This document shows positions 2,065 through 27,978 of a stretch of 30,152 nucleotides of DNA, piece by piece. The translations under genes were made by a program, and so were the position numbers. The stretch lies in IMG/VR virus record IMGVR_UViG_3300031578_000246, positions 1 to 30,152 of that record. One strand, written 5' to 3'. This stretch comes from a virus. The number at the start of each line of letters is the position of its first letter. Position 1 is the first letter of the stretch. Below the pieces are notes generated by a model. The model did not search any database, was not told where the DNA came from, and saw nothing but the letters and a program-made list of their open reading frames with translations.

Positions 2065-3129
2065 ATGCGTATTGCCCTTTTGAATGATACCCATTGTGGT
2101 ATTAGGAATTCTTCTGATATTTTTATCGGATATCAGGAACGATTTTATAATGAAATCTTTTTCCCCTATTGCCTAGAGAATGACATTAAACACATTCTAC
2201 ACCTAGGCGATTATTATGAACACCGCAGATTCATTAATTTCAAAGCACTTAGAAGTAACCGCAGGTGTTTCCTTGGTAAACTGAGGGAATATGGTATGAC
2301 CATGGATATTATACTTGGTAACCATGATGTATACTATAAGAATACCAATGACCTAAACTCTCTAAAGGAATTGTTAGGCCATTATATGAATGAGGTAAAT
2401 ATCATCACCAAACCTAAGGTTATGGATTATGATGGTATGAAGATGGCCCTTATACCATGGATTGCACCTGATATAGAAGTTGAGACAATGAAATTTCTAA
2501 AGAAGTGCAAATGTGATATAATTGGCGCTCACCTAGAATTGTCTGGATTCGATGTAACGCCTGGCCAGAAAATGATTGGGGGAATGGATGCAAAGATATT
2601 CTCAAAATTTGAAATGGTGTTATCAGGACATTACCATACTAAATCCAGTTCAGGTAATATTCATTACCTGGGATCTCAAATGGAGTTTTTTTGGAATGAC
2701 GCCCACGATTCAAAATATTTCCACGTACTTGATACGTCGGACCGTTCTTTGTTACCAATATTAAATCCTATCACTTTATTTGAAAAAATCTACTATGACG
2801 ATAGAGGAGATACCGATTACCTAACAACAGACGTATCCCACCTACGGGATAAGTTTATTAAATTGTACGTTATGAATAAATCAAATCCATTCGTGTTTGA
2901 CAGATTTCTTGATCGTATACAAGACCAACCCATACTTGAACTGAAGATTGCTGAGAATTTCCAAGAGTTTCTTGGTGAGTCGGTATCGGATGAACACGTA
3001 AAGTTGGAAAACACCGAGGAATTGTTGAACACGTATATTGATAGTATAGACACCGATCTAGACAAATCCAAGATTAAAAAATTGGTCAGTGAGTTGATGA
3101 CCGAATCTGAAAGCATGGAGATATCATAA
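2065..3129 (+). CDS. 47: Recombination nuclease subunit gp47 (Mre11-like)
   Basis: 354 residues (T4 gp47 is 339). All calcineurin-like phosphoesterase motifs are present: D8 and H10 in NDTHCG, GD (D49) in LHLGDYYE, LGNHD (N86-H87-D88), H156 in GAHLELSG and SGHYH (H189, H191). These residues bind two metal ions in the Mre11/SbcD family. With gp46 it forms the complex that resects double-strand ends to load UvsX for recombination-dependent replication, and it is also tied to host DNA breakdown in T4. It is the first gene after a consensus promoter, and its stop overlaps the gene 46 start in TAATG, indicating coupled synthesis of the two subunits. Confidence 0.95.
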   Translation: MRIALLNDTHCGIRNSSDIFIGYQERFYNEIFFPYCLENDIKHILHLGDYYEHRRFINFKALRSNRRCFLGKLREYGMTMDIILGNHDVYYKNTNDLNSLKELLGHYMNEVNIITKPKVMDYDGMKMALIPWIAPDIEVETMKFLKKCKCDIIGAHLELSGFDVTPGQKMIGGMDAKIFSKFEMVLSGHYHTKSSSGNIHYLGSQMEFFWNDAHDSKYFHVLDTSDRSLLPILNPITLFEKIYYDDRGDTDYLTTDVSHLRDKFIKLYVMNKSNPFVFDRFLDRIQDQPILELKIAENFQEFLGESVSDEHVKLENTEELLNTYIDSIDTDLDKSKIKKLVSELMTESESMEIS

Positions 3130-4844
3130 TGATTATATTCCAACGTCTTTCATGGGCTAATTTTCTAAGCACTGGTAACAACGTAACCACAATAGATTTA
3201 GAAAAGAATCCGTCTACCCTTGTTATTGGCACTAATGGTGCCGGTAAGTCCACCATGTTGGATGCTTTGTCCTTTGCGTTATTCGGTAAGGCCCACCGTA
3301 ACATTAACAAAGCGCAGATGATTAACTCCATTAATAGAAAACACTGTCTTGTTGAGGTAGACTTCTCTGTGCATAGTGCCCAGTATAAAATCGTGCGAGG
3401 CCTTAAACCAGCCAAGTTTGAAATTTGGAAAAATGGTGAATTGATTAACCAGAATTCCCACAATAAAGAATACCAGAAAATACTCGAACAGAATATCTTG
3501 AAATTGAACCATAAATCTTTCCACCAAATTGTGGTGTTGGGTTCGTCTTCCTTTATACCGTTTATGCAATTGACTTCCCAGAACCGTAGAGAAGTTATTG
3601 AGGATCTATTGGATATCAATGTTTTCTCCAAGATGAATGTTCTATTAAAGGAGAAGGTGGCTCTTGTACGGGATCAGTTAAGAGATATAGAATATCAGTC
3701 GGACCTTGAGGGAGCCCGCCTCGAGGCGGCTGAACAGAATGTCAATAAGATTAAGTCTATTAATAAAGAACACCGACAACATAAAGAATCTCAAATGGAA
3801 GAGATTAATGCTCAGATATCCGACCTGAATACTGAGGTCGAATCCCTACAACACGGTTTGGAAGAATCTAAGTCCTCGTTTGAAGATGAAAAACGCAAAC
3901 TTAAGAATACCAAATCTGGACTTGAAGAAGAAAAACGCACAGCAACCGTTGAGATATTGACGCTAGCGAAACACGCCAGATTTTTTGAGTCCAACGATGT
4001 TTGTCCTACGTGTGACCAAGATATTGACGAAAAGTTTAAGAAGACCCAGATTTCTGTGGCTGCTAAGAAGGCTAAAGATACCACCAAGGTGGTGAAAAAT
4101 TTGACTGAACAAATAGAAGCTGGAGAGGCGTACATTAAACATGTGGAGAATAGTCTAGAGGATATTCAAAACAAAACCATGACCATTCACGGTCATAGTC
4201 AGTCTATCGTGCAATTGTGTGCCCAGTTAATCCAACTCCAAAAGGACATAGACCTGATAAACACTGGTGCAGGAGACCTAACGGTCGCTAAGAAAGAGAT
4301 TGAGAAGTATAGAGATATACTCACCAAACTAGGAGACGACCAAGACGAATTAAAAGAGATTGCCTCGTACCAGCGGGTGGCACAGGAACTATTGAAAGAT
4401 ACAGGTATTAAAACTAAGATCATCAAACAGTACCTACCTGTTATCAATCAACTGGTTAACCAGTATCTACAGGTATTGGACTTCTTTGTGTATTTCAATC
4501 TGGACGAGAGTTTTACCGAAACTATTAGGTCACGACACCGTGATGATTTCTCCTATGACTCCTTTTCCGAAGGCGAGAAACAACGTATCGATTTGTCTCT
4601 GTTATTTACCTGGCGCCAGGTGGCCAAGATGAAAAACTCGGTAGCGACTAATCTTTTGATATTGGACGAAACATTCGATTCATCCCTTGATGCTGATGGT
4701 GTAGAGAATCTTATGAAAATTCTCCATACTCTTGACGCCGGCACTAATGTCTTTATTATATCTCACAAGACGGACCTGTTAGAAGGAAAGTTCGAAAATA
4801 AAATTGAGTTTCGTAAAGTCAAAAACTTCTCGGTGCTTGCATAA
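3129..4844 (+). CDS. 46: Recombination nuclease ATPase subunit gp46 (Rad50-like)
   Basis: 571 residues (T4 gp46 is 560). N-terminal Walker A GTNGAGKST at 34-42; long coiled-coil arms from about 190 to 420, interrupted by a zinc-hook CPTC (C292, C295); ABC signature SFSEGEKQR at 478-486; Walker B LLILDET at 509-515, followed by a D-loop and the switch histidine in ISHK. This is the complete SMC/Rad50/SbcC layout. Two molecules clamp DNA and, through ATP hydrolysis, drive the gp47 nuclease during end resection. It is the second gene of the 47-46 operon. In many T4-like phages gene 45 follows soon; here about 4.9 kb of accessory genes intervene. Confidence 0.95.
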   Translation: MIIFQRLSWANFLSTGNNVTTIDLEKNPSTLVIGTNGAGKSTMLDALSFALFGKAHRNINKAQMINSINRKHCLVEVDFSVHSAQYKIVRGLKPAKFEIWKNGELINQNSHNKEYQKILEQNILKLNHKSFHQIVVLGSSSFIPFMQLTSQNRREVIEDLLDINVFSKMNVLLKEKVALVRDQLRDIEYQSDLEGARLEAAEQNVNKIKSINKEHRQHKESQMEEINAQISDLNTEVESLQHGLEESKSSFEDEKRKLKNTKSGLEEEKRTATVEILTLAKHARFFESNDVCPTCDQDIDEKFKKTQISVAAKKAKDTTKVVKNLTEQIEAGEAYIKHVENSLEDIQNKTMTIHGHSQSIVQLCAQLIQLQKDIDLINTGAGDLTVAKKEIEKYRDILTKLGDDQDELKEIASYQRVAQELLKDTGIKTKIIKQYLPVINQLVNQYLQVLDFFVYFNLDESFTETIRSRHRDDFSYDSFSEGEKQRIDLSLLFTWRQVAKMKNSVATNLLILDETFDSSLDADGVENLMKILHTLDAGTNVFIISHKTDLLEGKFENKIEFRKVKNFSVLA

Positions 4845-4984: not shown

Positions 4985-5046
4985 GTAAGTCATTGATTTC
5001 TATAGGTAATACCGTGGTTGACTTCTGGGTCGTTAACCCTCATAAT
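4985..5046 (+). promoter_or_regulatory. Promoter cassette A1 (repeated family)
   Basis: Upstream element GTAAGTCATTGATTTC (4985-5000), 17-bp gap, -35 TTGACT (5018-5023), 17-bp spacer, -10 CATAAT (5041-5046), then TTCACTTCAATTCGAGA. It is the first of two tandem copies before the CobT-like gene. Any transcript from here would also run through cassette A2. Confidence 0.75.
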
Positions 5047-5115
5047 TTCACTTCAATTCGAGAATGAAATAATTGAAAAACGTCTTACAAATCAACCACT
5101 TAGAACGCAAACCGC

Positions 5116-5177
5116 GTAAGTTATTGATTTCTATAACGAATATTGATGTTGACTTCTCGAAGAAATACCTTCATAAT
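5116..5177 (+). promoter_or_regulatory. Promoter cassette A2 (repeated family)
   Basis: Upstream element GTAAGTTATTGATTTC (5116-5131), 17-bp gap, -35 TTGACT (5149-5154), 17-bp spacer, -10 CATAAT (5172-5177). The predicted start near 5184 gives a leader of about 17 nt to the ATG at 5201. The leader contains GAGAG, which probably acts as the ribosome site. Confidence 0.78.
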
Positions 5178-5200
5178 GGCATTTCAAATTGAGAGAAACA

Positions 5201-7528
5201 ATGACAGTTAACAAGACAGTTAAATCGACACTCGCACGGCTCCTCGCTCAAGAGGATATACATGTAGAGCATAGAGGTGTAAGAACCGCTGGGTTTAACT
5301 TGAAGACTCGCGTATTGACTTTGCCCGTATGGGATGCAATGTCACCTGCGATGTATGACTATATGACCGCTCATGAAGTGGGTCATGCATTAGAGACACC
5401 TACCTCGGGTTGGATGGAAGCGGTAGAACGCCGCAAGGCCCTGAAAGGTTATTTGAATGTAATCGAAGACGTGCGCATCGAAAAGATTATGCGCCGCCGT
5501 TATCCTGGTCTGAAAAAAGACTTTACAGCAGCTTATGTTGAATTATATCAGCGTAACTTCTTTGGAGACGATGCACCTCATAAACCCCTATTAATCGACC
5601 GTATCAATTGTTACTATAAAGGTGGCACTATGATGGGTATTAACTTTACTGCGGAAGAAGCAGTATTGCGTGATAGGGTGGGAACAGTAAACACCTGGGA
5701 ACAAGTTGAGGAACTAGCGTTAGAAATACTCGAATTCGCCAAAGCGAATAAGACTCCTGAACCTGAAATTGAAGAAGAAAGCGGTACTGAGGAAAAGGTA
5801 GAGTATGTCCCTGTTCCTGAGGAATTCTCCGAAGAAGAATCTGAATCTGGTGAAGAATCCGAAGAGGACGCTGAAGGTGAAGAATCCGAGTCAGAAGAGG
5901 ACGCTGAAGGTGAAGAATCCGAAGAGGACGCTGAATCTGGTGAAGAATCCGAAGAGGACGCTGAAGGTGAAGAATCCGAAGAGGACGCTGAAGGTGAAGA
6001 ATCCGAAGAGGACGCTGAAGGTGGCGAAACTGACTCCGAGGAAGGGAATGATTCGGGTAGTGATGAATTGTCGGATGACGAAGTAGAATCCGAAACTGAT
6101 GAATTGCTGCAGAAAATGTTAGAGGAAACCTTTGGTTCTTCTAGGGAAAGGTTTCACCTACAAATCAATATTAACCCTAAAGTTAAAAACATAGAGAATA
6201 GGGTCGTGTCTTATGACACTATCCTGAGGGATATTGCGGATGAAAATGTTTATGTTAACATTGAACCCGAGCTCGAATCTCTTATGTCAGACTTCAACAA
6301 AGAAAACAAGGCTATTATAAACCACATGGTGCGCGAATTCGAAATGAAGAAACGCGCAGCAGAATATTCTAGAACGGCTACCTCCAAAACTGGAATTATA
6401 GATTGTTCTAAACTACACATGTACAAGTATTCTGACGATGTTTTTGCGCGTATGGACGTGACTCCTGATGGTAAGAACCATGGCATGATTATGTACGTGG
6501 ACTGGTCAGGATCAATGTCTAGTTCCCTCCATAATGTTGTTGAACAGTTAATCAACATGGTAGCATTTTGTCGTCAAGCAGGCATTGCCCACAGGGTCTT
6601 TGCCTTTACTGATGATAGCGGGGCCAGAACTTCTCTGCGTCAGCAACAAAAATCAGAATTAGAAATTGCGGACTGTGAACTTGATGTTAACAAGGTGTCC
6701 CTACTCGAACTTTTCAATTCAAACATGAATAAGTTAAAATACAGCAGGATGTCCAAATACTTACTGGCCTATTCTTCTGAAATATCCAGATCACAACGCC
6801 GCGGATACTGGCGTTCTGGAGGCTCAAGAAGTAAATTTGGTATGCCTTCAAAATATACCTTGAATGGTACTCCCCTGACAGAAGCTCTGGTTTTGTCCTT
6901 TCCTATGTTTGATAAATTCAAGTCAGATTCGAGAGCAGACGTTATTACTACTCTTTGGTTAACGGATGGCGGCGGGTGCGATCCCCTGTATAGGGATCCT
7001 GCGACAAAATCATCCCTACCTATGTCCCAGTCGGCAAAACGCCCTCGCGACGAGGAAGGCCGTTTGATGCCTTTACGCACCACAGTAACTAACCTTGTTA
7101 ACAAGGAGTCAATTGTGTTGCCTGACTATGCTACTAACGCGGATGGAATATGCGAAGCGTTACGCTCTATGTACATATCGTACACCGACAGTAACCTTCT
7201 GGGATACTTTGTGGTAGGAAGTACCCTTGCGCAATTTCAGCGTCATATACCTGCCATTGTTAAAAAGAAGTTTGGGGGTGGATATAGCCCTGAGTTTGAA
7301 GCGTATGCGAAAAAATGCGTAAAAGAAGGTTTGTGTGTCACTAAGGACACCTCCTATACGGAATACTATCTTATCAGTAACGATAAATTGAAGACTGAAT
7401 CGGATAATTTCGATTCAATACCTGAAGGCGCGACAACGCGGAAGATTGCTTCTGTTTATAAGAAAATGTCCAACAAAAAGAATAGCTCTAGGGTATTCGC
7501 TTCTAAGATGATGGAACTGGTCGCGTAA
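5201..7528 (+). CDS. Zinc metallopeptidase-like/VWA protein, CobT-like
   Basis: 775 residues from the ATG at 5201. An upstream TTG at 5189 would sit about five bases from the predicted transcript start, without a ribosome site. An HExxH zinc-binding motif is in HEVGHALE (H58, E59, H62), followed by NVIEDVRIE, where a third ligand may lie. Residues about 186-303 are extremely acidic and include six copies of a nine-residue unit GEESEEDAE. The C-terminal half is a von Willebrand A domain: MIDAS DWSGS (D434, S436, S438), a threonine in GTPLTEAL and an aspartate in LWLTDGG (D589). The order N-domain, acidic linker, VWA resembles cobaltochelatase CobT and other partners of MoxR ATPases. The next gene encodes such an ATPase. 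No CobN homologue is visible, so cobalt insertion is unlikely to be its job. Confidence 0.8.
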   Translation: MTVNKTVKSTLARLLAQEDIHVEHRGVRTAGFNLKTRVLTLPVWDAMSPAMYDYMTAHEVGHALETPTSGWMEAVERRKALKGYLNVIEDVRIEKIMRRRYPGLKKDFTAAYVELYQRNFFGDDAPHKPLLIDRINCYYKGGTMMGINFTAEEAVLRDRVGTVNTWEQVEELALEILEFAKANKTPEPEIEEESGTEEKVEYVPVPEEFSEEESESGEESEEDAEGEESESEEDAEGEESEEDAESGEESEEDAEGEESEEDAEGEESEEDAEGGETDSEEGNDSGSDELSDDEVESETDELLQKMLEETFGSSRERFHLQININPKVKNIENRVVSYDTILRDIADENVYVNIEPELESLMSDFNKENKAIINHMVREFEMKKRAAEYSRTATSKTGIIDCSKLHMYKYSDDVFARMDVTPDGKNHGMIMYVDWSGSMSSSLHNVVEQLINMVAFCRQAGIAHRVFAFTDDSGARTSLRQQQKSELEIADCELDVNKVSLLELFNSNMNKLKYSRMSKYLLAYSSEISRSQRRGYWRSGGSRSKFGMPSKYTLNGTPLTEALVLSFPMFDKFKSDSRADVITTLWLTDGGGCDPLYRDPATKSSLPMSQSAKRPRDEEGRLMPLRTTVTNLVNKESIVLPDYATNADGICEALRSMYISYTDSNLLGYFVVGSTLAQFQRHIPAIVKKKFGGGYSPEFEAYAKKCVKEGLCVTKDTSYTEYYLISNDKLKTESDNFDSIPEGATTRKIASVYKKMSNKKNSSRVFASKMMELVA
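5849..6019 (+). repeat. Six-copy 27-bp tandem repeat in coding sequence
   Basis: Six nearly identical units encoding GEESEEDAE (57 residues with a two-residue and a one-residue insertion). Units are the same at the DNA level apart from the insertions, so the array probably expanded recently by slippage or recombination. It makes a negatively charged, probably unfolded linker between the peptidase-like and VWA domains. Confidence 0.88.
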
Positions 7529-7615
7529 GTGATTGATTCTAAAGACAATAATCGTAAGTCATTGATTTCCAAGAGAATTATGAGGGTTGACTTATGTGCC
7601 CCAAACCTTCATAAT
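7525..7615 (+). promoter_or_regulatory. Promoter cassette B (repeated family, doubled upstream element)
   Basis: Upstream element 1 GTAAGTGATTGATTCT (7525-7540) overlaps the stop codon of the CobT-like gene. Element 2 GTAAGTCATTGATTTC (7554-7569) is followed, after 17 bp, by -35 TTGACT (7587-7592), a 17-bp spacer, -10 CATAAT (7610-7615) and then ACTTCAATGAGAGA. It drives the AAA+ gene at 7645 with a leader of about 23 nt. Confidence 0.8.
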
Positions 7616-7644
7616 GGCACTTCAATGAGAGAGGAAACAAGTAT

Positions 7645-8850
7645 ATGAGCATGACAAATCAAGAGAAACGCGAATTCGTCGTGTCTGTTTTGACAGAGGC
7701 GTTCGGTCCTGATTGTACCGAACTGACCCGCGCTGATGTAGTTTCAGCGATGGAACCCTATCTGGATCAAGTGGCGTTTCCTTTCTGGGTAACTCACGCT
7801 AAGAATCGTTTGAAAAACGGGAACTATAAGTTTCCCCAAATCGACGGCGCCGTAGTGTCTGTCGGTAAACCTAAGGTCGAGAAGGTCGAGAAGGTTGAGG
7901 AAGAGGAAGTCGCGAATGTGGTCTCCTTTGCTCAGCGTAAGTTGGTTCAACCAACTATTAATACGGTCGCTTCTGGTTTTGATGAAAACCTGGTGCCCAA
8001 AAAGAATCCAATGTATGTGCCCTTTGGTTACTACAATACAGTTCATACGGTAGTTAAAAGTGGCATGTTTTACCCCATGTTTGTAACGGGTATGTCAGGT
8101 AACGGTAAAACGCACATGATCGAACAGGTGTGTTCGAAGCTGAAAAGAGAATGCATCCGAGTCAATTTCACCAAAGAAACCGACGAGGATGATCTGATTG
8201 GGGGATTCCGCCTGATCGATGGCGAAACAGTGTTCTTTAAGGGACCTGTTATCAAGGCGATGGAAAGAGGTGCAGTATTGCTTCTAGATGAAATCGACCT
8301 GGCATGCCCCGCTAAGGTTATGTGTCTCCAATCGATATTGGAAGGGTCAGGATACTTCATTAAGAAGACTGGCGAATATATTACGCCTGCTGAGGGTTTT
8401 ACCGCAGTCGCAACAGCAAACACCAAAGGTAAGGGGTCGGATGACGGTCGCTTTATTGCGACCAACGTGTTGAATGAAGCGTTCCTTGAGCGATTCCCTA
8501 TCACGATTGAACAAGAATATCCCCCCGTTGCAATTGAAAAACGCATTATCTTGAAGGAATTCCAATCGCTTGGCGTCGAGGATTCTGACTTTGTACGTAA
8601 ACTGGTCGAGTGGGCGGACATTATCCGCAAGACATTCGAAGTTGGGGGTGTAGACGATATTATCTCCACGCGCCGCCTGATACACATTGCAAAAGCGTAT
8701 TCCATCTTTAAGAATCGTTTGGATGCAATTAACCTTTGTATCAACCGCTTTGATGATGATACCAAGCAGTCCTTTCTTGAACTGTACTCCAAGTTGGACT
8801 CTGATGTAGACTTGTCCAACCTGGGAAAACCAACAAGCCCTGACGAATAA
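7645..8850 (+). CDS. MoxR/CobS-like AAA+ ATPase
   Basis: 401 residues. Residues 1-75 form a separate N-terminal domain (NQEKRE, FPFW, THAKNR) that recurs in the protein at 27472. The linker at about 75-95 is charged and repetitive (VEKVEKVEEEE). The AAA+ core follows: Walker A GMSGNGKT (149-156), Walker B LLLDEID (aspartate 215, glutamate 216), a sensor-like TANT and a FLERF arginine region. These match the MoxR/CobS class, whose hexamers work with VWA proteins such as the CobT-like neighbour to remodel or activate a target. Phage copies are often annotated cobS, but real cobalamin synthesis is doubtful. The ATG at 7645, ten bases after GAGG, is preferred to the ATG at 7651. Confidence 0.88.
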   Translation: MSMTNQEKREFVVSVLTEAFGPDCTELTRADVVSAMEPYLDQVAFPFWVTHAKNRLKNGNYKFPQIDGAVVSVGKPKVEKVEKVEEEEVANVVSFAQRKLVQPTINTVASGFDENLVPKKNPMYVPFGYYNTVHTVVKSGMFYPMFVTGMSGNGKTHMIEQVCSKLKRECIRVNFTKETDEDDLIGGFRLIDGETVFFKGPVIKAMERGAVLLLDEIDLACPAKVMCLQSILEGSGYFIKKTGEYITPAEGFTAVATANTKGKGSDDGRFIATNVLNEAFLERFPITIEQEYPPVAIEKRIILKEFQSLGVEDSDFVRKLVEWADIIRKTFEVGGVDDIISTRRLIHIAKAYSIFKNRLDAINLCINRFDDDTKQSFLELYSKLDSDVDLSNLGKPTSPDE

Positions 8851-8877: not shown

Positions 8878-8901
8878 ACCCCGCGCTCTGCGGGGTTTTT
8901 T
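8878..8901 (+). terminator. Intrinsic terminator after the AAA+ gene
   Basis: Stem CCCCGC (8879-8884) / GCGGGG (8890-8895), five-base loop, then a run of T from 8896 to 8901. It ends the CobT/CobS-like block directly before a new consensus promoter at 8908. Confidence 0.88.
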
Positions 8902-8907
8902 ATATGG

Positions 8908-8936
8908 TTGACACGGTACATTTTTATCCCTATAAT
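8908..8936 (+). promoter_or_regulatory. Consensus sigma70 promoter
   Basis: TTGACA (8908-8913), 17-bp spacer, TATAAT (8931-8936). It shares TTGACACGG and ATCCCTATAAT with the gene 45 promoter at 9689. It follows the terminator at once and would transcribe the small membrane protein and the LapG-like protease. Confidence 0.85.
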
Positions 8937-9130: not shown

Positions 9131-9685
9131 ATGGAATCTGTAAGGTTGGTGGCAAGCAGTCTGACTATGTTAAAAAATATAGAAGGACTTCCGTCTGAAA
9201 GTGACAAGGTACGCTCAATACATAATTGGGTATCAAATAATATTAGGTGGTCTTCTGACAAAGAAATGTATAATGTAGAGGATTATTGGGCCACCCCATA
9301 TGAAACGTTAAAGAAGGAACGAGGCGATTGCGAAGACATTGCCATCTTAAAATATTTTTTAATGTTAAAGGCAGGAGTTTCTGTCGGAACTCTCAGAATT
9401 TCCTTTGTTAAAATGTTGCAACAAGGTAAACAACTGGCTCATATGGTACTGTGTTATTACGATGATCCTGAGGATGATTCTTTTGTTTCCGATTGCATTA
9501 ACCCTAAACTATTAAGGTTTAATGAAAGATCGGATCTTACTCTGGTTTATGGATTTAACCATGACAACCTGTGGGTTGGTAATTCAAAAATGCCAGCGGG
9601 AGTTAATCCAGAACAGGCATTAAAGACCTGGAAAGATGTTAGGGCCCGTATGTCCGAAGAAATAGAAGATAATAAGTGGTACTAG
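9131..9685 (+). CDS. Transglutaminase-like cysteine protease (BTLCP / LapG-like)
   Basis: 184 residues. It has the bacterial transglutaminase-like cysteine protease signature: RGDCEDIA with the nucleophile at C67, AHMVL with H104 and SDCINP with D121, in the order and spacing of LapG. D66, E68 and D69 flank the cysteine, as do the calcium-binding residues of LapG. In pseudomonads LapG cleaves the biofilm adhesin LapA in the periplasm. No signal peptide is visible here, so the protein should stay in the cytoplasm until lysis unless exported another way. AAGGAG precedes the ATG. The substrate is unknown: host adhesin, another phage protein or a defence protein are all possible. Confidence 0.8.
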   Translation: MESVRLVASSLTMLKNIEGLPSESDKVRSIHNWVSNNIRWSSDKEMYNVEDYWATPYETLKKERGDCEDIAILKYFLMLKAGVSVGTLRISFVKMLQQGKQLAHMVLCYYDDPEDDSFVSDCINPKLLRFNERSDLTLVYGFNHDNLWVGNSKMPAGVNPEQALKTWKDVRARMSEEIEDNKWY

Positions 9686-9776: not shown

Positions 9777-10451
9777 ATGAAGTTAGACGATTTTACTCAG
9801 GAAGTATTGAAGAATTTTTCGGATATACAACCCAATATCGTTATACACCCCGGAAAGGAGATTAAAACCCTTTCTGAATCCAGAAATATTATGGCGAGAG
9901 TCAACCTTAACCAAGAGTTTACCAATGAGGTACGTATCTATGACCTCAAGGAATTCCTTGGTGTTTTGCGTCTGTTGGATAGTCCCGATATTACCTTCCA
10001 TGAAACTCATGTACTTGTCGCCGACGGCGTAGGCCGATCCCGTATCAAGTACTTTTTTGCGGATGGTAATACTCTTACCGTACCTGCAAAGGACATTGCA
10101 ATGCCTAAGGCAGAGGTCATGTTTGAGTTGGACGAAAAGACCCTGAACTCAATACGCTCTGCAGCGGGGGCATTGGGCCATGAGAAATTCACAGTCAAGA
10201 AAATTGATGGAACTATTGTTCTGACCGTCGAAGATGTGGAAGATGATACGTCTAACAAATACTCCGTCGATGTGCCTGGTACCGCAGATCATGATGATTT
10301 TGTGTTTATACTTAACGTGAATAACGTTAAGGTAATTCCAGGAGATTATACGGTAAGTATGTCGTCCAAACGCATTTCTAAATTCAAGAATAAGACTCAT
10401 GATCTTGAATATTGGATTGCCTTGGATAAATCCTCCGTATATAATGGATAA
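9777..10451 (+). CDS. 45: Sliding clamp, DNA polymerase processivity factor gp45
   Basis: 224 residues (T4 gp45 is 228). The sequence has the two-domain clamp pattern of T4-type gp45: an N-terminal IRIYDLKEFLGVLRLL-like helix/strand unit, a central FELDEKTLNSIRSAAGAL helix opening the second domain, and the C-terminal repeat ending in DLEYWIALD. The trimer encircles DNA, holds polymerase gp43 on its template and, loaded by gp44/62, also activates gp55-dependent late promoters. It has its own consensus promoter and a strong ribosome site, which fits the large amount of clamp needed. Confidence 0.92.
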   Translation: MKLDDFTQEVLKNFSDIQPNIVIHPGKEIKTLSESRNIMARVNLNQEFTNEVRIYDLKEFLGVLRLLDSPDITFHETHVLVADGVGRSRIKYFFADGNTLTVPAKDIAMPKAEVMFELDEKTLNSIRSAAGALGHEKFTVKKIDGTIVLTVEDVEDDTSNKYSVDVPGTADHDDFVFILNVNNVKVIPGDYTVSMSSKRISKFKNKTHDLEYWIALDKSSVYNG

Positions 10452-10839: not shown

Positions 10840-11775
10840 ATGTCCAATGAATTCCTTTGGGTGGAAAGATACAGGCCAACCACGGTACAAGAAACAATAT
10901 TACCAAAACGTCTGAAAGATATTATGCTGAAGGTCGTATCTGGGGGAGAAGTGCCCAATATGATACTATCTGGTACAGCAGGTATAGGTAAGACAACAGT
11001 GGCTCGAGCGATATGCAATGAACTGAACCTTGATTATATCATGATTAACGGTTCCGAAGAAGGCAATATCGACACTCTACGCGGTAAAATTAAACAGTTT
11101 GCATCATCGGTCTCCCTGCATGGGGGATATAAGGTGGTCATACTTGACGAGGCAGACTATCTGAATGCTCAGTCAACCCAACCTGCATTACGAGGATTCA
11201 TCGAAGAATTTTCTGACAACTGTAGGTTTATTCTAACTTGTAATTTCAAACACAAGATCATCGAACCTCTGCATAGTAGATGTTCTTTATTCGAATTTAA
11301 TGCGACAAAGAAAGAACTACCAGAACTGTGTGGTTTATTCTTGACCCGCCTGGAAGATATTCTGGATAAAGAAGGCGTGGAGTTTGATAGATCCACCCTG
11401 GCTGATATCATCAAACGATATTTGCCCGATTGGCGTAAGATCATAGGTGCGGTGCAAACCAATGCTATGACAGGCAATGTATGTGGCCAAACGGTGGTGA
11501 TAGAGGAGTCCTCATTTGAGGAGTTGTTTAAACACCTCAAAGATGGTGACTTCAAGGGAATGCGGCAGTGGGTTGCTAGTCACGTCGATTTAGAATCGGC
11601 CTCGGTGTTTCGAGGCATCTATGATAGAATGACTAACAAGGTAAAACCTGAGAGTATACCACATTTGGTTTTGATACTTGCGGACTATCAGTATAAGGAC
11701 GCCTTTGTAGCAGACCACGAATTGAATATGGTTGCCTGCATGGTTGAGTTAATGGGCGCGGTGAAATTCGTATGA
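10840..11775 (+). CDS. 44: Clamp loader large subunit gp44 (AAA+ ATPase)
   Basis: 311 residues (T4 gp44 is 319). Starts with the clamp-loader hallmark WVERYRP, then Walker A GTAGIGKT (45-52), Walker B ILDEAD (DEAD at 103-106) and the SRC arginine-finger motif (146-148). Four gp44 and one gp62 form the loader that opens the gp45 ring and places it at primer-template ends. In T4, gene 62 follows directly. Here four other proteins (64, 72, 128 and 433 residues) plus a 66-residue one come first. The stop overlaps the next start in ATGA. Confidence 0.95.
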   Translation: MSNEFLWVERYRPTTVQETILPKRLKDIMLKVVSGGEVPNMILSGTAGIGKTTVARAICNELNLDYIMINGSEEGNIDTLRGKIKQFASSVSLHGGYKVVILDEADYLNAQSTQPALRGFIEEFSDNCRFILTCNFKHKIIEPLHSRCSLFEFNATKKELPELCGLFLTRLEDILDKEGVEFDRSTLADIIKRYLPDWRKIIGAVQTNAMTGNVCGQTVVIEESSFEELFKHLKDGDFKGMRQWVASHVDLESASVFRGIYDRMTNKVKPESIPHLVLILADYQYKDAFVADHELNMVACMVELMGAVKFV

Positions 11776-12607: not shown

Positions 12608-13909
12608 ATGGACATAGAAAAACAGTGGGAAACATGGTTAGAGAAGAATCCTCAGGATTCGTACCGTCATATTGACCCTGATGAACTTAAAGATAGACTT
12701 ATACGGGAACTGACTTATGTTTCCGCTATGACTGTGGAAGAATATACCCTCTATCAGAAGTGGTTGGAAATTCATGAGAAATACCCAACCCGTAAAGTAG
12801 ACACCCTTTTTGGTGAGGAACTACAACTGGTCGACCATTCGAAAGGTAAGTTTATTAATAAGGTCAAGGCGAACATGTGGATGCCTAATGACATTAATGA
12901 TTATATGAAACTTGAACCTACTCTGATATTCACAGACGATTCCTCTGTTACAGATGATGTTGGTCTTGATGGTAAGTCAACCGCTACCGAAAACAAACGT
13001 ACCGCAGAACTGTCTGAGGTGTGGGCCACTCTACGGGTGTTCGGTTCTACCATGAAAAATAACTCCAATATTGGCCGTAATATGCACTTCATAGTGCAAG
13101 ATAAAGTTTCAGGCAAATACCTTGGAGTTATCTGTATTACAGGTGACTTCCTGGACCTGACTCCTCGCGATAAGTATATTGGTTGGGATAGACATTCTAA
13201 AACCATGGAAGGTATGATTAACCACACCTGCATTGGTTCTACGATTGTGCCTCTACAACCTCTTGGTTTTAATTATGTTGGGGGTAAACTACTAGCTCTG
13301 TTATGTTTATCTGATACGGTACAGGACCTATGGTTGTCCCGATATGGAGATAAACTGGTGGGTGTGACAACAACCTCCTTATATGGTTCATTCTCTCAAT
13401 ATCAGAACCTTGCACATTGGAAGAAAAGAGGACACTCCTCAGGTTCAGTATCATATGAACCTTCCAAAGAGGCCACGTATATGATGCGTGATTGGATTAA
13501 AGAGAACTATACTAGAAAATACTTTGAATGGTATGGTGCAATGAACGCAAAGGGACAACCCTATAAGCGTGACCATAAGAACCGATCAAGGACCTTTGCT
13601 TTCTCCAAACTTGGTATACCTAAAGAACTGATTAAATCAGACCACTCCCGAGGAATATATTTCTCTACCCTGTATGATAACAGTAGGGAATTCTTACGAA
13701 AGGAGTGTGGTGTTGAAGATTTGAAGAAATCGTTTGCCACCGATGAACAAACTTTAGTACAATTATGGAAAGAGAGATACGCTTCCAAGAGAGTTAAGAA
13801 TTTATCAGAACAAGGTCGATGTAATATGGCCAGTCTTTTTTATGACGATCTGATATACATGACTTGGGAAGAAACCAAAGAGAAATACTTGAAGGAGATA
13901 GGAAGATAA
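12608..13909 (+). CDS. DUF4338 / DruA-like protein, putative
   Basis: 433 residues. The central part (about 150-290) matches the pattern I know from DUF4338, the domain of Druantia protein DruA: a strand pair with GKYLGVICI, then PRDKYIGW, an N..C-containing link to an IVPLQPLGFNYVGGKLLALL helix, LW..RYGDKLVGVTTTS and QYQNLAHWKKRGHSSG, in the same order. The N-terminal 130 residues and basic C-terminal 120 residues are unrecognised. DruA belongs to an anti-phage system; its biochemical role is unclear to me. A phage copy could be a decoy, an inter-phage weapon or a domesticated nucleic-acid enzyme. It sits between MazG and gene 62. The resemblance is by eye. Confidence 0.5.
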   Translation: MDIEKQWETWLEKNPQDSYRHIDPDELKDRLIRELTYVSAMTVEEYTLYQKWLEIHEKYPTRKVDTLFGEELQLVDHSKGKFINKVKANMWMPNDINDYMKLEPTLIFTDDSSVTDDVGLDGKSTATENKRTAELSEVWATLRVFGSTMKNNSNIGRNMHFIVQDKVSGKYLGVICITGDFLDLTPRDKYIGWDRHSKTMEGMINHTCIGSTIVPLQPLGFNYVGGKLLALLCLSDTVQDLWLSRYGDKLVGVTTTSLYGSFSQYQNLAHWKKRGHSSGSVSYEPSKEATYMMRDWIKENYTRKYFEWYGAMNAKGQPYKRDHKNRSRTFAFSKLGIPKELIKSDHSRGIYFSTLYDNSREFLRKECGVEDLKKSFATDEQTLVQLWKERYASKRVKNLSEQGRCNMASLFYDDLIYMTWEETKEKYLKEIGR

Positions 13910-16378: not shown

Positions 16379-16386
16379 TATAAATA
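16379..16386 (+). promoter_or_regulatory. Candidate gp55-dependent late promoter (TATAAATA)
   Basis: Exact T4 late-promoter octamer in the 68-bp gap before regA. T4-type late promoters need only this box. The match is short, so chance cannot be excluded, but the position is intergenic and correctly oriented. Confidence 0.45.
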
Positions 16387-23524: not shown

Positions 23525-23612
23525 AAGTCATTGATTTCCTTACATATTTTGTAAGCTCTTGATTTCCTTAAGGAAAGTGACGCTTGACTTATGGTGGCCA
23601 GTCCTTCATAAT
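23524..23612 (+). promoter_or_regulatory. Promoter cassette C (repeated family, doubled upstream element)
   Basis: Upstream element 1 GAAGTCATTGATTTC (23524-23538) touches the gene 41 stop. Element 2 GTAAGCTCTTGATTTC (23551-23566) is followed after 17 bp by -35 TTGACT (23584-23589), 17-bp spacer, -10 CATAAT (23607-23612), then ACTTCAATGAGAGA. AGAGG in the leader serves the gene at 23647. Confidence 0.8.
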
Positions 23613-23646
23613 AGTACTTCAATGAGAGATTAAAGAGGTAACTCCT

Positions 23647-26714: not shown

Positions 26715-26801
26715 TTTCCTTAGAGTTTTTCTATATCCCCTAAGTCATTGATTTCATTGAAGAAATTAGTACTTGACTTACCTACCATAAACCTTCATAA
26801 T
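26703..26801 (+). promoter_or_regulatory. Promoter cassette D (repeated family, doubled upstream element)
   Basis: Element 1 GCAAGCTCTTGATTTC (26703-26718) overlaps the nuclease stop. Element 2 CTAAGTCATTGATTTC (26740-26755), 17-bp gap, -35 TTGACT (26773-26778), 17-bp spacer, -10 CATAAT (26796-26801), then ACTTCAATGAGAGA. The leader contains AGAGG before the TTG start at 26833. Confidence 0.8.
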
Positions 26802-26832
26802 GTTACTTCAATGAGAGAAAAGAGGTCACAGA

Positions 26833-27471: not shown

Positions 27472-27978
27472 ATGAGTTTAAGTAACCAAGAAAAACGTGA
27501 GTTGATTGTAAATGCCCTGTATAAGAATTACAAGGGCGCCGAATCGGTCACCCGTAAACAAGTGGTAGCGGCCGTAAAGGACCTGCCTGTTCCCTTCCCT
27601 TTCTGGATGACACATGCCAAGAATCGTAATGACGATGGCACGTACCGTATGCCAGAACCTCTGGTAGTCAAATCTGCGCCTGGTAAGAAAGCGACAGGTG
27701 TTGTAGTTGCCGAGGAAGTTAAAGGCGTGACCAAACGAAAGCCTAAGGGCAAAAAGAAGGTCGAAAAGAAGGTTAAACCTGCGCCTGTAAAGAAGGCTAA
27801 GGTTGCGCCTGTGAAAAAGGCCAAAAAAGAGGTCGAACCTGGAACTGCTGTTGAGTTTGATGGTAAATCTGGAAAGATTGTCAATGACCTGTCCACTCAA
27901 TACTTTGTTGAACTTGAAGATGGCAAAGAAGTGTTCGTTTTTAAGACTGACAAGCGCTTGAGTAAAGCCAAAAATTAG
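27472..27978 (+). CDS. Protein sharing the AAA+ N-domain, with lysine-rich linker and KOW-like end
   Basis: 168 residues. Residues 1-65 are clearly related to the N-terminal domain of the AAA+ protein at 7645: both have NQEKRE, a TR-x-x-VV centre, FPFW, THAKNR and a following G-x-Y. Residues about 75-125 are a lysine/proline/alanine linker like histone H1 tails (PVKKAKVAPVKKAKKE). The last 45 residues (PGTAVEFDGKSGKIVNDL, then YFVELEDGKEVFVF) read like a small KOW/SH3-type barrel. It may bind nucleic acid and may compete with or recruit the AAA+ machine. TAGGAG lies before the ATG. Function unknown. Confidence 0.78.
   Translation: MSLSNQEKRELIVNALYKNYKGAESVTRKQVVAAVKDLPVPFPFWMTHAKNRNDDGTYRMPEPLVVKSAPGKKATGVVVAEEVKGVTKRKPKGKKKVEKKVKPAPVKKAKVAPVKKAKKEVEPGTAVEFDGKSGKIVNDLSTQYFVELEDGKEVFVFKTDKRLSKAKN

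Follow-up and report, generated by a model that had tools for sequence, protein, structure and literature searches.

An HExxH-VWA protein and its MoxR-type AAA+ partner in T4-like phages are probably not the vitamin B12 enzyme of their usual label

The DNA analyzed here is a viral fragment of 30,152 bases, positions 1 to 30,152 of IMG/VR record IMGVR_UViG_3300031578_000246 (hereafter the window), in which two adjacent genes encode a protein with an HExxH motif and a VWA domain (the VWA protein) and an AAA+ ATPase of the MoxR/CobS class. In viral ecology, phage cobS is taken for a B12 auxiliary metabolic gene and serves as a cyanomyovirus core marker (PMC9983427, PMC7029224), and the function of the pair is disputed in print between a CobST that hijacks the host CobN (Liu 2021, PMC8651126) and a virion-assembly chaperone-protease (Iyer 2021, PMC7824862). 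We conclude that the pair is probably not the B12 enzyme of its usual label, and we lean, on balance, towards a MoxR-type AAA+/VWA remodelling machine of the T4-like DNA replication and recombination programme rather than a cobaltochelatase. The pair is a long-known, conserved T4-like module belonging to the cyanophage core; the genes themselves were already known, and what is new is the case against labelling them CobT/CobS, together with the link to plasmids. The initial annotation of this DNA had proposed a MoxR ATPase beside a VWA protein with a peptidase-like N-terminal domain. That much stands, but it had missed that the module is known, occupies its usual position and has relatives in plasmid operons.

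Motifs and predicted fold of the HExxH-VWA protein

The VWA protein matches the PHROG family phrog_459 'peptidase' over residues 3–775 (E 3e-172). Its HExxH, acidic linker and complete metal ion-dependent adhesion site (MIDAS), all described initially, were confirmed. H58, E59 and H62 are invariant in 48/48 diverse phage members, a set that was filtered for HExxH and from which only two long members lacking the motif dropped out, both cut at contig starts. These members are mostly 25–35% identical to the window protein. Loss of zinc-site residues in relatives, which the initial annotation had named as evidence against its reading, was therefore not seen. In the second motif, N86, E89, D90, R92 and I93 are invariant in the same members and E94 is kept in 47/48. 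An HExxH with a conserved downstream acidic ligand is the sequence signature of a gluzincin-like metallopeptidase, and the protein carries both; judged from the motif, E89 would be the third zinc ligand. The MIDAS residues D434, S436, S438, T557 and D589 are likewise invariant across the 48 members. Between the two domains lies a linker of 109 residues, 49 of them Glu, with a net charge of -59.

In the AlphaFold2 model of the VWA protein (mean predicted local distance difference test, pLDDT, 72), HExxH lies in a helix at residues 49–65 and NxxEDxRIE in a helix at 81–100, and residues 185–293 are disordered. The predicted N-domain helices are compatible with a zincin fold. The best PDB fold matches are the VWA domains of NorD in NorQ-NorD complexes (E 2.7e-5). 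Sequence searches of Pfam and the PDB with the VWA protein returned only low-complexity matches to the acidic linker. Kinship with SprT/Spartan was considered and is unsupported: PF10263 was not matched in the window, the listed phage matches were short separate frames, and the aligned VWA members gave one chance-level match (E 0.041).

The MoxR-type AAA+ ATPase

The neighbouring product is an AAA+ ATPase of the MoxR/CobS class, as initially described. It scored 66.2 bits against AAA_5 of Pfam (cut-off 22) and 23.7 bits against CbbQ_C (cut-off 20.6), and it has both Walker motifs; its sensor-1 residue N259 and the conserved R283 and R343/R344 occupy positions kept across the family alignment. 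With an ATPase over the cut-off and an adjacent VWA protein with a complete MIDAS, the pair has the sequence make-up of the MoxR AAA+/VWA class. The N-terminal helical domain of the ATPase, present in most aligned phage members, had no match in Pfam and, judged by eye, resembles a winged helix. The AlphaFold2 model of this protein was of low confidence (pLDDT 66) and was not used. Elsewhere in the window (27472–27978), a 168-residue protein is 42% identical over its first ~90 residues to the N-terminal part of the ATPase, and after a K/A/P-rich stretch the protein ends in what may be a KOW-like part; it matched no family of PHROG or Pfam.

Separation from CobS, CobT and CobN

The PHROG family matched by the ATPase, phrog_249, is named 'porphyrin biosynthesis / CobS' (E 6e-117), and the cobaltochelatase CobS-CobT has in common with the phage pair an architecture of an AAA+ protein plus a VWA protein with an acidic linker. 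The initial annotation had doubted the cobS label and a B12 role, and this doubt is now well supported. Against TIGR01650 (CobS) the ATPase scored 86.3 bits, not reaching the equivalog cut-off of 558.55. Phage ATPases and authentic CobS separate in a maximum-likelihood tree into one clade each (98/97 and 100/99, respectively); the tree did not discriminate between possible sister groups (p-AU, from the approximately unbiased test, 0.40). The CobT family PF06213 had no match in seven phage records, with control genomes giving matches. Matches to the CobT families (PF06213/TIGR01651) among the phage VWA members were at chance level (2/43, best E 0.25), and the window VWA protein had no NCBIfam match. 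Comparison of phage and CobT domain profiles was not significant for either the N-terminal or the VWA domain (8.6% and 10.2%).

Unlike the phage VWA protein, authentic CobT lacks HExxH (0/19 proteins from Alphaproteobacteria): its counterpart there resembles RGxxDAxALRxxHHD, and in place of the second motif stands a sequence like EQARVE. Because the motif is present in the wider family, HExxH would have been lost in CobT rather than gained elsewhere. The absence of CobN, pointed out initially, also holds more widely, as neither the window nor seven further pair-carrying phage records, four of them deposited as complete genomes, gave a match to PF02514, while positive controls did. Among the 14 control genomes, Synechococcus elongatus gave a CobN match and E. 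coli did not. Pelagibacter phage HTVC008M, which infects Candidatus Pelagibacter ubique, carries the pair with HEVGH and NVIEDIRID; since SAR11 is described as neither requiring B12 nor possessing pathways for making it (PMC8552899), a B12 booster would be senseless there.

On the cellular side, 19 of 40 CobT-bearing alphaproteobacterial genomes (G017–G073, of the class of G006) had no CobN, some of them being possibly incomplete, so that cellular CobT need not imply cobalt insertion. Caulobacter vibrioides gave a CobT match and no CobN match. A cellular CobST role independent of CobN may exist.

The pair across T4-like phages

By tblastn, the VWA protein had matches in 463 phage records, the majority of them from cyanophages; the matches outside this group were in Pelagibacter, Stenotrophomonas, Pseudoalteromonas and Ochrobactrum phages. 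The pair thus occurs in other T4-like phages, where the initial annotation had proposed to look for it, and the two genes are adjacent in 78 of the 79 distinct loci with enough flank. The AAA+ gene is the next recognised gene after the VWA gene in 73/79; the other six comprise four loci with the reverse order, one with the AAA+ gene behind a split VWA gene and one without an AAA+ gene. The order 47-46-peptidase-cobS-45-44, with small genes interspersed, was found in Synechococcus phage S-SM1, Ochrobactrum phage OC and HTVC008M. In Stenotrophomonas phage DLP6, uvsX and the primase-helicase gene 41 precede the pair. The phrog_459 plus phrog_249 pairs of S-SM1, HTVC008M and DLP6 have a gene order identical to that of the window, usually between 46 and 45. 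The initial statement that the genes are inserted between 46 and 45 is accordingly right about the position and wrong about a phage-specific insertion, this being the usual order of the group. Aligned with the window, phage family members are 37–62% (AAA+) and 19–35% (VWA) identical. The pairs are essentially alike, the window differing in the repeated promoters of its own and in a long linker of acidic repeats. CobS was among the core genes of all 16 cyanophages compared in 2010 (PMC3037559). A MoxR plus metallopeptidase-vWA pair of jumbo phages (PMC7824862) has a like domain architecture and pairing, a likeness drawn from description and not from sequence.

Relatives on plasmids and integrative elements

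When genomes were scanned with the phage family and with motif patterns, cellular relatives emerged that hold HExxH, NIIEDIRIE, an acidic linker and VWA in one protein. As acidic linkers might inflate a full-length profile comparison, the N-terminal and VWA domains were compared separately, with the linker left out. Phage proteins and those of plasmids and integrative and conjugative elements (plasmid/ICE) proved homologous over both domains (N domain 99.2%, E 3e-19; VWA 95.3%, E 2e-8), as did plasmid/ICE proteins and CobT (94.5% and 99.2%, respectively); mismatched-domain controls gave 0.2–0.3%. HExxH is present in 16/17 plasmid/ICE members, the L160 type having HExxxH. At four loci (L159, L160, L161 and L170) HExxxH (HEGVGH, HEATGH) replaces HExxH, and NIIEDIRIE is kept.

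Three loci (L163, L167, L175) contain an operon of RecT, YqaJ exonuclease, MoxR ATPase, DUF3150 and the HExxH-VWA gene, and parts of it were seen at two more (L168, L171). Such RecT/Bet-YqaJ exo-MoxR-DUF3150-VWA operons occur both at chromosomal loci and on conjugative plasmids, and the plasmid ones house the nearest cellular relatives. A similar bet/exo-MoxR-DUF3150-VWA layout was seen on an IncC and a MOBH plasmid of E. coli, and IncHI1B and IncHI2A plasmids carry ATPase-DUF3150-VWA-Toprim with no bet/exo nearby. The operon of these elements (IncC, IncHI2A, IncHI1B) often stands beside DNA recombination genes and resembles the phage pair in its MoxR/CbbQ_C partner, with DUF3150 placed between the two genes. 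That MoxR-VWA genes are common to pCAR1 (ORF100–103), R478, Rts1, SXT and R391 was noted in 2009 (PMC2642839). Eight of the 13 genomes with a cellular HExxH-VWA gene had no CobN. A plasmid search with the Ochrobactrum phage protein gave no match.

Promoter-like elements and terminator

The initial claim that the module has its own promoters and terminator was borne out at the level of prediction: a promoter-like element precedes each gene, and a terminator-like hairpin closes the module (Table 1). The element, ~80–90 nt long, reads TTGATTTC-N17-TTGACTT-N16-CATAAT with a conserved CTTCAATGAGAGA-like leader behind it; it has five matches in the window against 0.00 expected (none in 100 shuffles). 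It has the look of an early, phage-specific class of promoter. The hairpin is followed at 8908 by a perfect TTGACA-17-TATAAT site. The T4 late motif TATAAATA occurs in the window only at 16379 and 25075, with none near the pair. The literature searched contained no suitable publication on the expression class of the pair in cyanophages.

Proposed mechanism and alternative readings

NorQ-NorD provides a precedent in which the ATPase ring moves the VWA domain, which a linker ties to the N-terminal domain, and in which the MIDAS presumably grips a target (PMC13036017). NorQ-NorD and CbbQ-CbbO, like the phage pair, combine a MoxR and a VWA protein with a long flexible linker and a separate N-terminal domain, and the fold match is to the NorD VWA domain. 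What they act on is an enzyme that requires metal insertion or reactivation (PMC13036017, PMC9976466), and the N-terminal domains of NorD/CbbO-type co-chaperones are described as mutually unrelated. By analogy with NorQ-NorD, the phage AAA+ protein would form a hexameric ring on which the VWA domain would dock, its MIDAS gripping an acidic site on a target protein. ATP hydrolysis would then shift the VWA domain against the N-terminal domain, which hangs on the long acidic linker and, with its intact HExxH...NxxEDxRIE, would most likely bind zinc and either cleave or clamp the target being pulled. As far as motifs can tell, the protease idea is plausible. Since the pair keeps company with replication and recombination genes both in phages and on plasmids, its target may belong to DNA metabolism.

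Several points weigh against such a machine. Guilt by association is weak in T4-like phages, because one conserved gene order counts once. The frequency of HExxH in the cellular loci is biased, because these were fetched with motif patterns. The fold search returned no known zincin for the N-terminal domain, the PDB matches listed covering the VWA domain only. The plasmid operon has a third protein, DUF3150 (PF11348), which was not found in the window and seven other phage records and was present in two cellular genomes searched alongside. Finally, virion assembly is the main rival, which we nevertheless regard as unlikely. In this reading, which Iyer et al. (2021, PMC7824862) put forward for jumbo phages of group 2.2, the MoxR-VWA pair would help head or tail proteins to fold or assemble, and its metallopeptidase domain would trim them. 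An intact HExxH suits proteolytic processing of structural proteins, and a MoxR-vWA pair of an archaeal virus has been reported as necessary for tail assembly, according to its citation in PMC7824862. What weakens virion assembly is that homologous pairs occur on conjugative plasmids, which make no virion, and that the phage pair sits in a replication cluster behind sigma-70-like promoters with no late promoter nearby. T4 assembly chaperones can be made early, so gene position alone is weak evidence on this point.

The common auxiliary metabolic gene reading (Liu et al. 2021, PMC8651126), in which a cobaltochelatase assembled from phage CobS-CobT subunits and host CobN boosts B12 production, seems to us very unlikely. 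CobS is indeed the best PDB match of the AAA+ profile (E 3e-39) once multi-domain midasin is set aside, the plasmid/ICE relatives share homology with CobT in both domains, and cyanobacterial hosts can encode CobN, as the S. elongatus control illustrates. Yet the missed family cut-offs, the separate AAA+ clades, the lack of HExxH in CobT and the pair of a SAR11 phage all speak against it. We give just as little credence to a host-takeover or counter-defence device that would dismantle or cleave host proteins early in infection. The early-type promoter-like element of each gene and the closing hairpin would fit such a role, and MoxR-vWA couples are known from conflict systems (PMC7159879); however, counter-defence genes are patchy, unlike a pair that is adjacent nearly everywhere and whose cobS is core to 16/16 cyanophages, and no defence-related neighbour was recognised beside it. 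A more far-reaching version of the DNA-metabolism machine is speculative and rather improbable: an AAA+-driven metalloprotease, functionally analogous to p97-Spartan and common to T4-like phages and conjugative plasmids, would clear or remodel proteins on replicating or recombining DNA. In that scenario the CobT of chromosomes would have branched off later, losing its protease site and being co-opted for cobalt insertion.

Should the pair prove to be a zinc-peptidase-type remodelling machine of DNA metabolism, the B12 reading would fail for a gene that ranks among the commonest 'metabolic' ones in marine phages. An old question becomes testable through the plasmid operon link and through the contrast between mobile elements, where the zinc motif is invariant, and CobT, which lacks it. 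The plasmid link also offers a tractable E. coli system for the function of the pair, marine phages being otherwise hard to work with.

Features and gene neighbourhood

Table 1 Features of the pair and its predicted control elements in the window
Feature	Position	Strand	Details
Two tandem promoter-like element copies before the VWA gene	4985–5205	+	TTGACT-17-CATAAT at 5018 and 5149
HExxH-VWA protein gene	5201–7528	+	775 residues; ATG at 5201 (listed open reading frame begins at TTG 5189); phrog_459 'peptidase'
HEVGH	5372–5386	+	Residues 58–62; candidate zinc ligands H58, H62; candidate catalytic E59
NVIEDVRIE	5456–5482	+	Residues 86–94; E89 or a nearby acidic residue as candidate third zinc ligand
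Acidic linker, predicted disordered	5753–6079	+	Residues about 185–293; pLDDT <50; 27-bp tandem repeats
VWA MIDAS	6500–6967	+	DWSGSM 434–439, T557, D589
Third promoter-like element copy, before the AAA+ gene	7554–7643	+	TTGACT-17-CATAAT at 7587
MoxR/CobS-class AAA+ ATPase gene	7645–8850	+	401 residues; phrog_249
N-terminal helical domain of the AAA+ protein	7645–7842	+	In most phage members (alignment)
Walker A GMSGNGKT	8089–8112	+	Residues 149–156; G149, G152, G154, K155 invariant
Walker B LLLDEID	8278–8298	+	Residues 212–218; L212, D215, E216, D218 invariant
Intrinsic-terminator-like hairpin and T-run	8878–8902	+	GC-rich hairpin 8878–8896; closes the module
Remaining promoter-like element copies	23551–23640, 26740–26829		TTGACT-17-CATAAT at 23559 and 26748

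Profile searches of the window placed gene 47 (2065–3129) and gene 46 (3129–4844) upstream of the VWA gene, together with a uvsW-like helicase gene and gene 55. Downstream of the pair come a C93 transglutaminase-like gene (9131–9685), gene 45 (9777–10451) and gene 44 (10840–11775). The first of these, directly between the pair and gene 45, encodes a bacterial transglutaminase-like cysteine proteinase (Peptidase_C93, E 1.8e-13) and is preceded by the perfect sigma-70 consensus site at 8908. Between the clamp-loader genes 44 and 62 lies a gene for a DruA-like protein (12608–13909; PF14236, E 2.5e-15), a homologue of a Druantia defence component that is unexpected inside a T4-like replication cluster.

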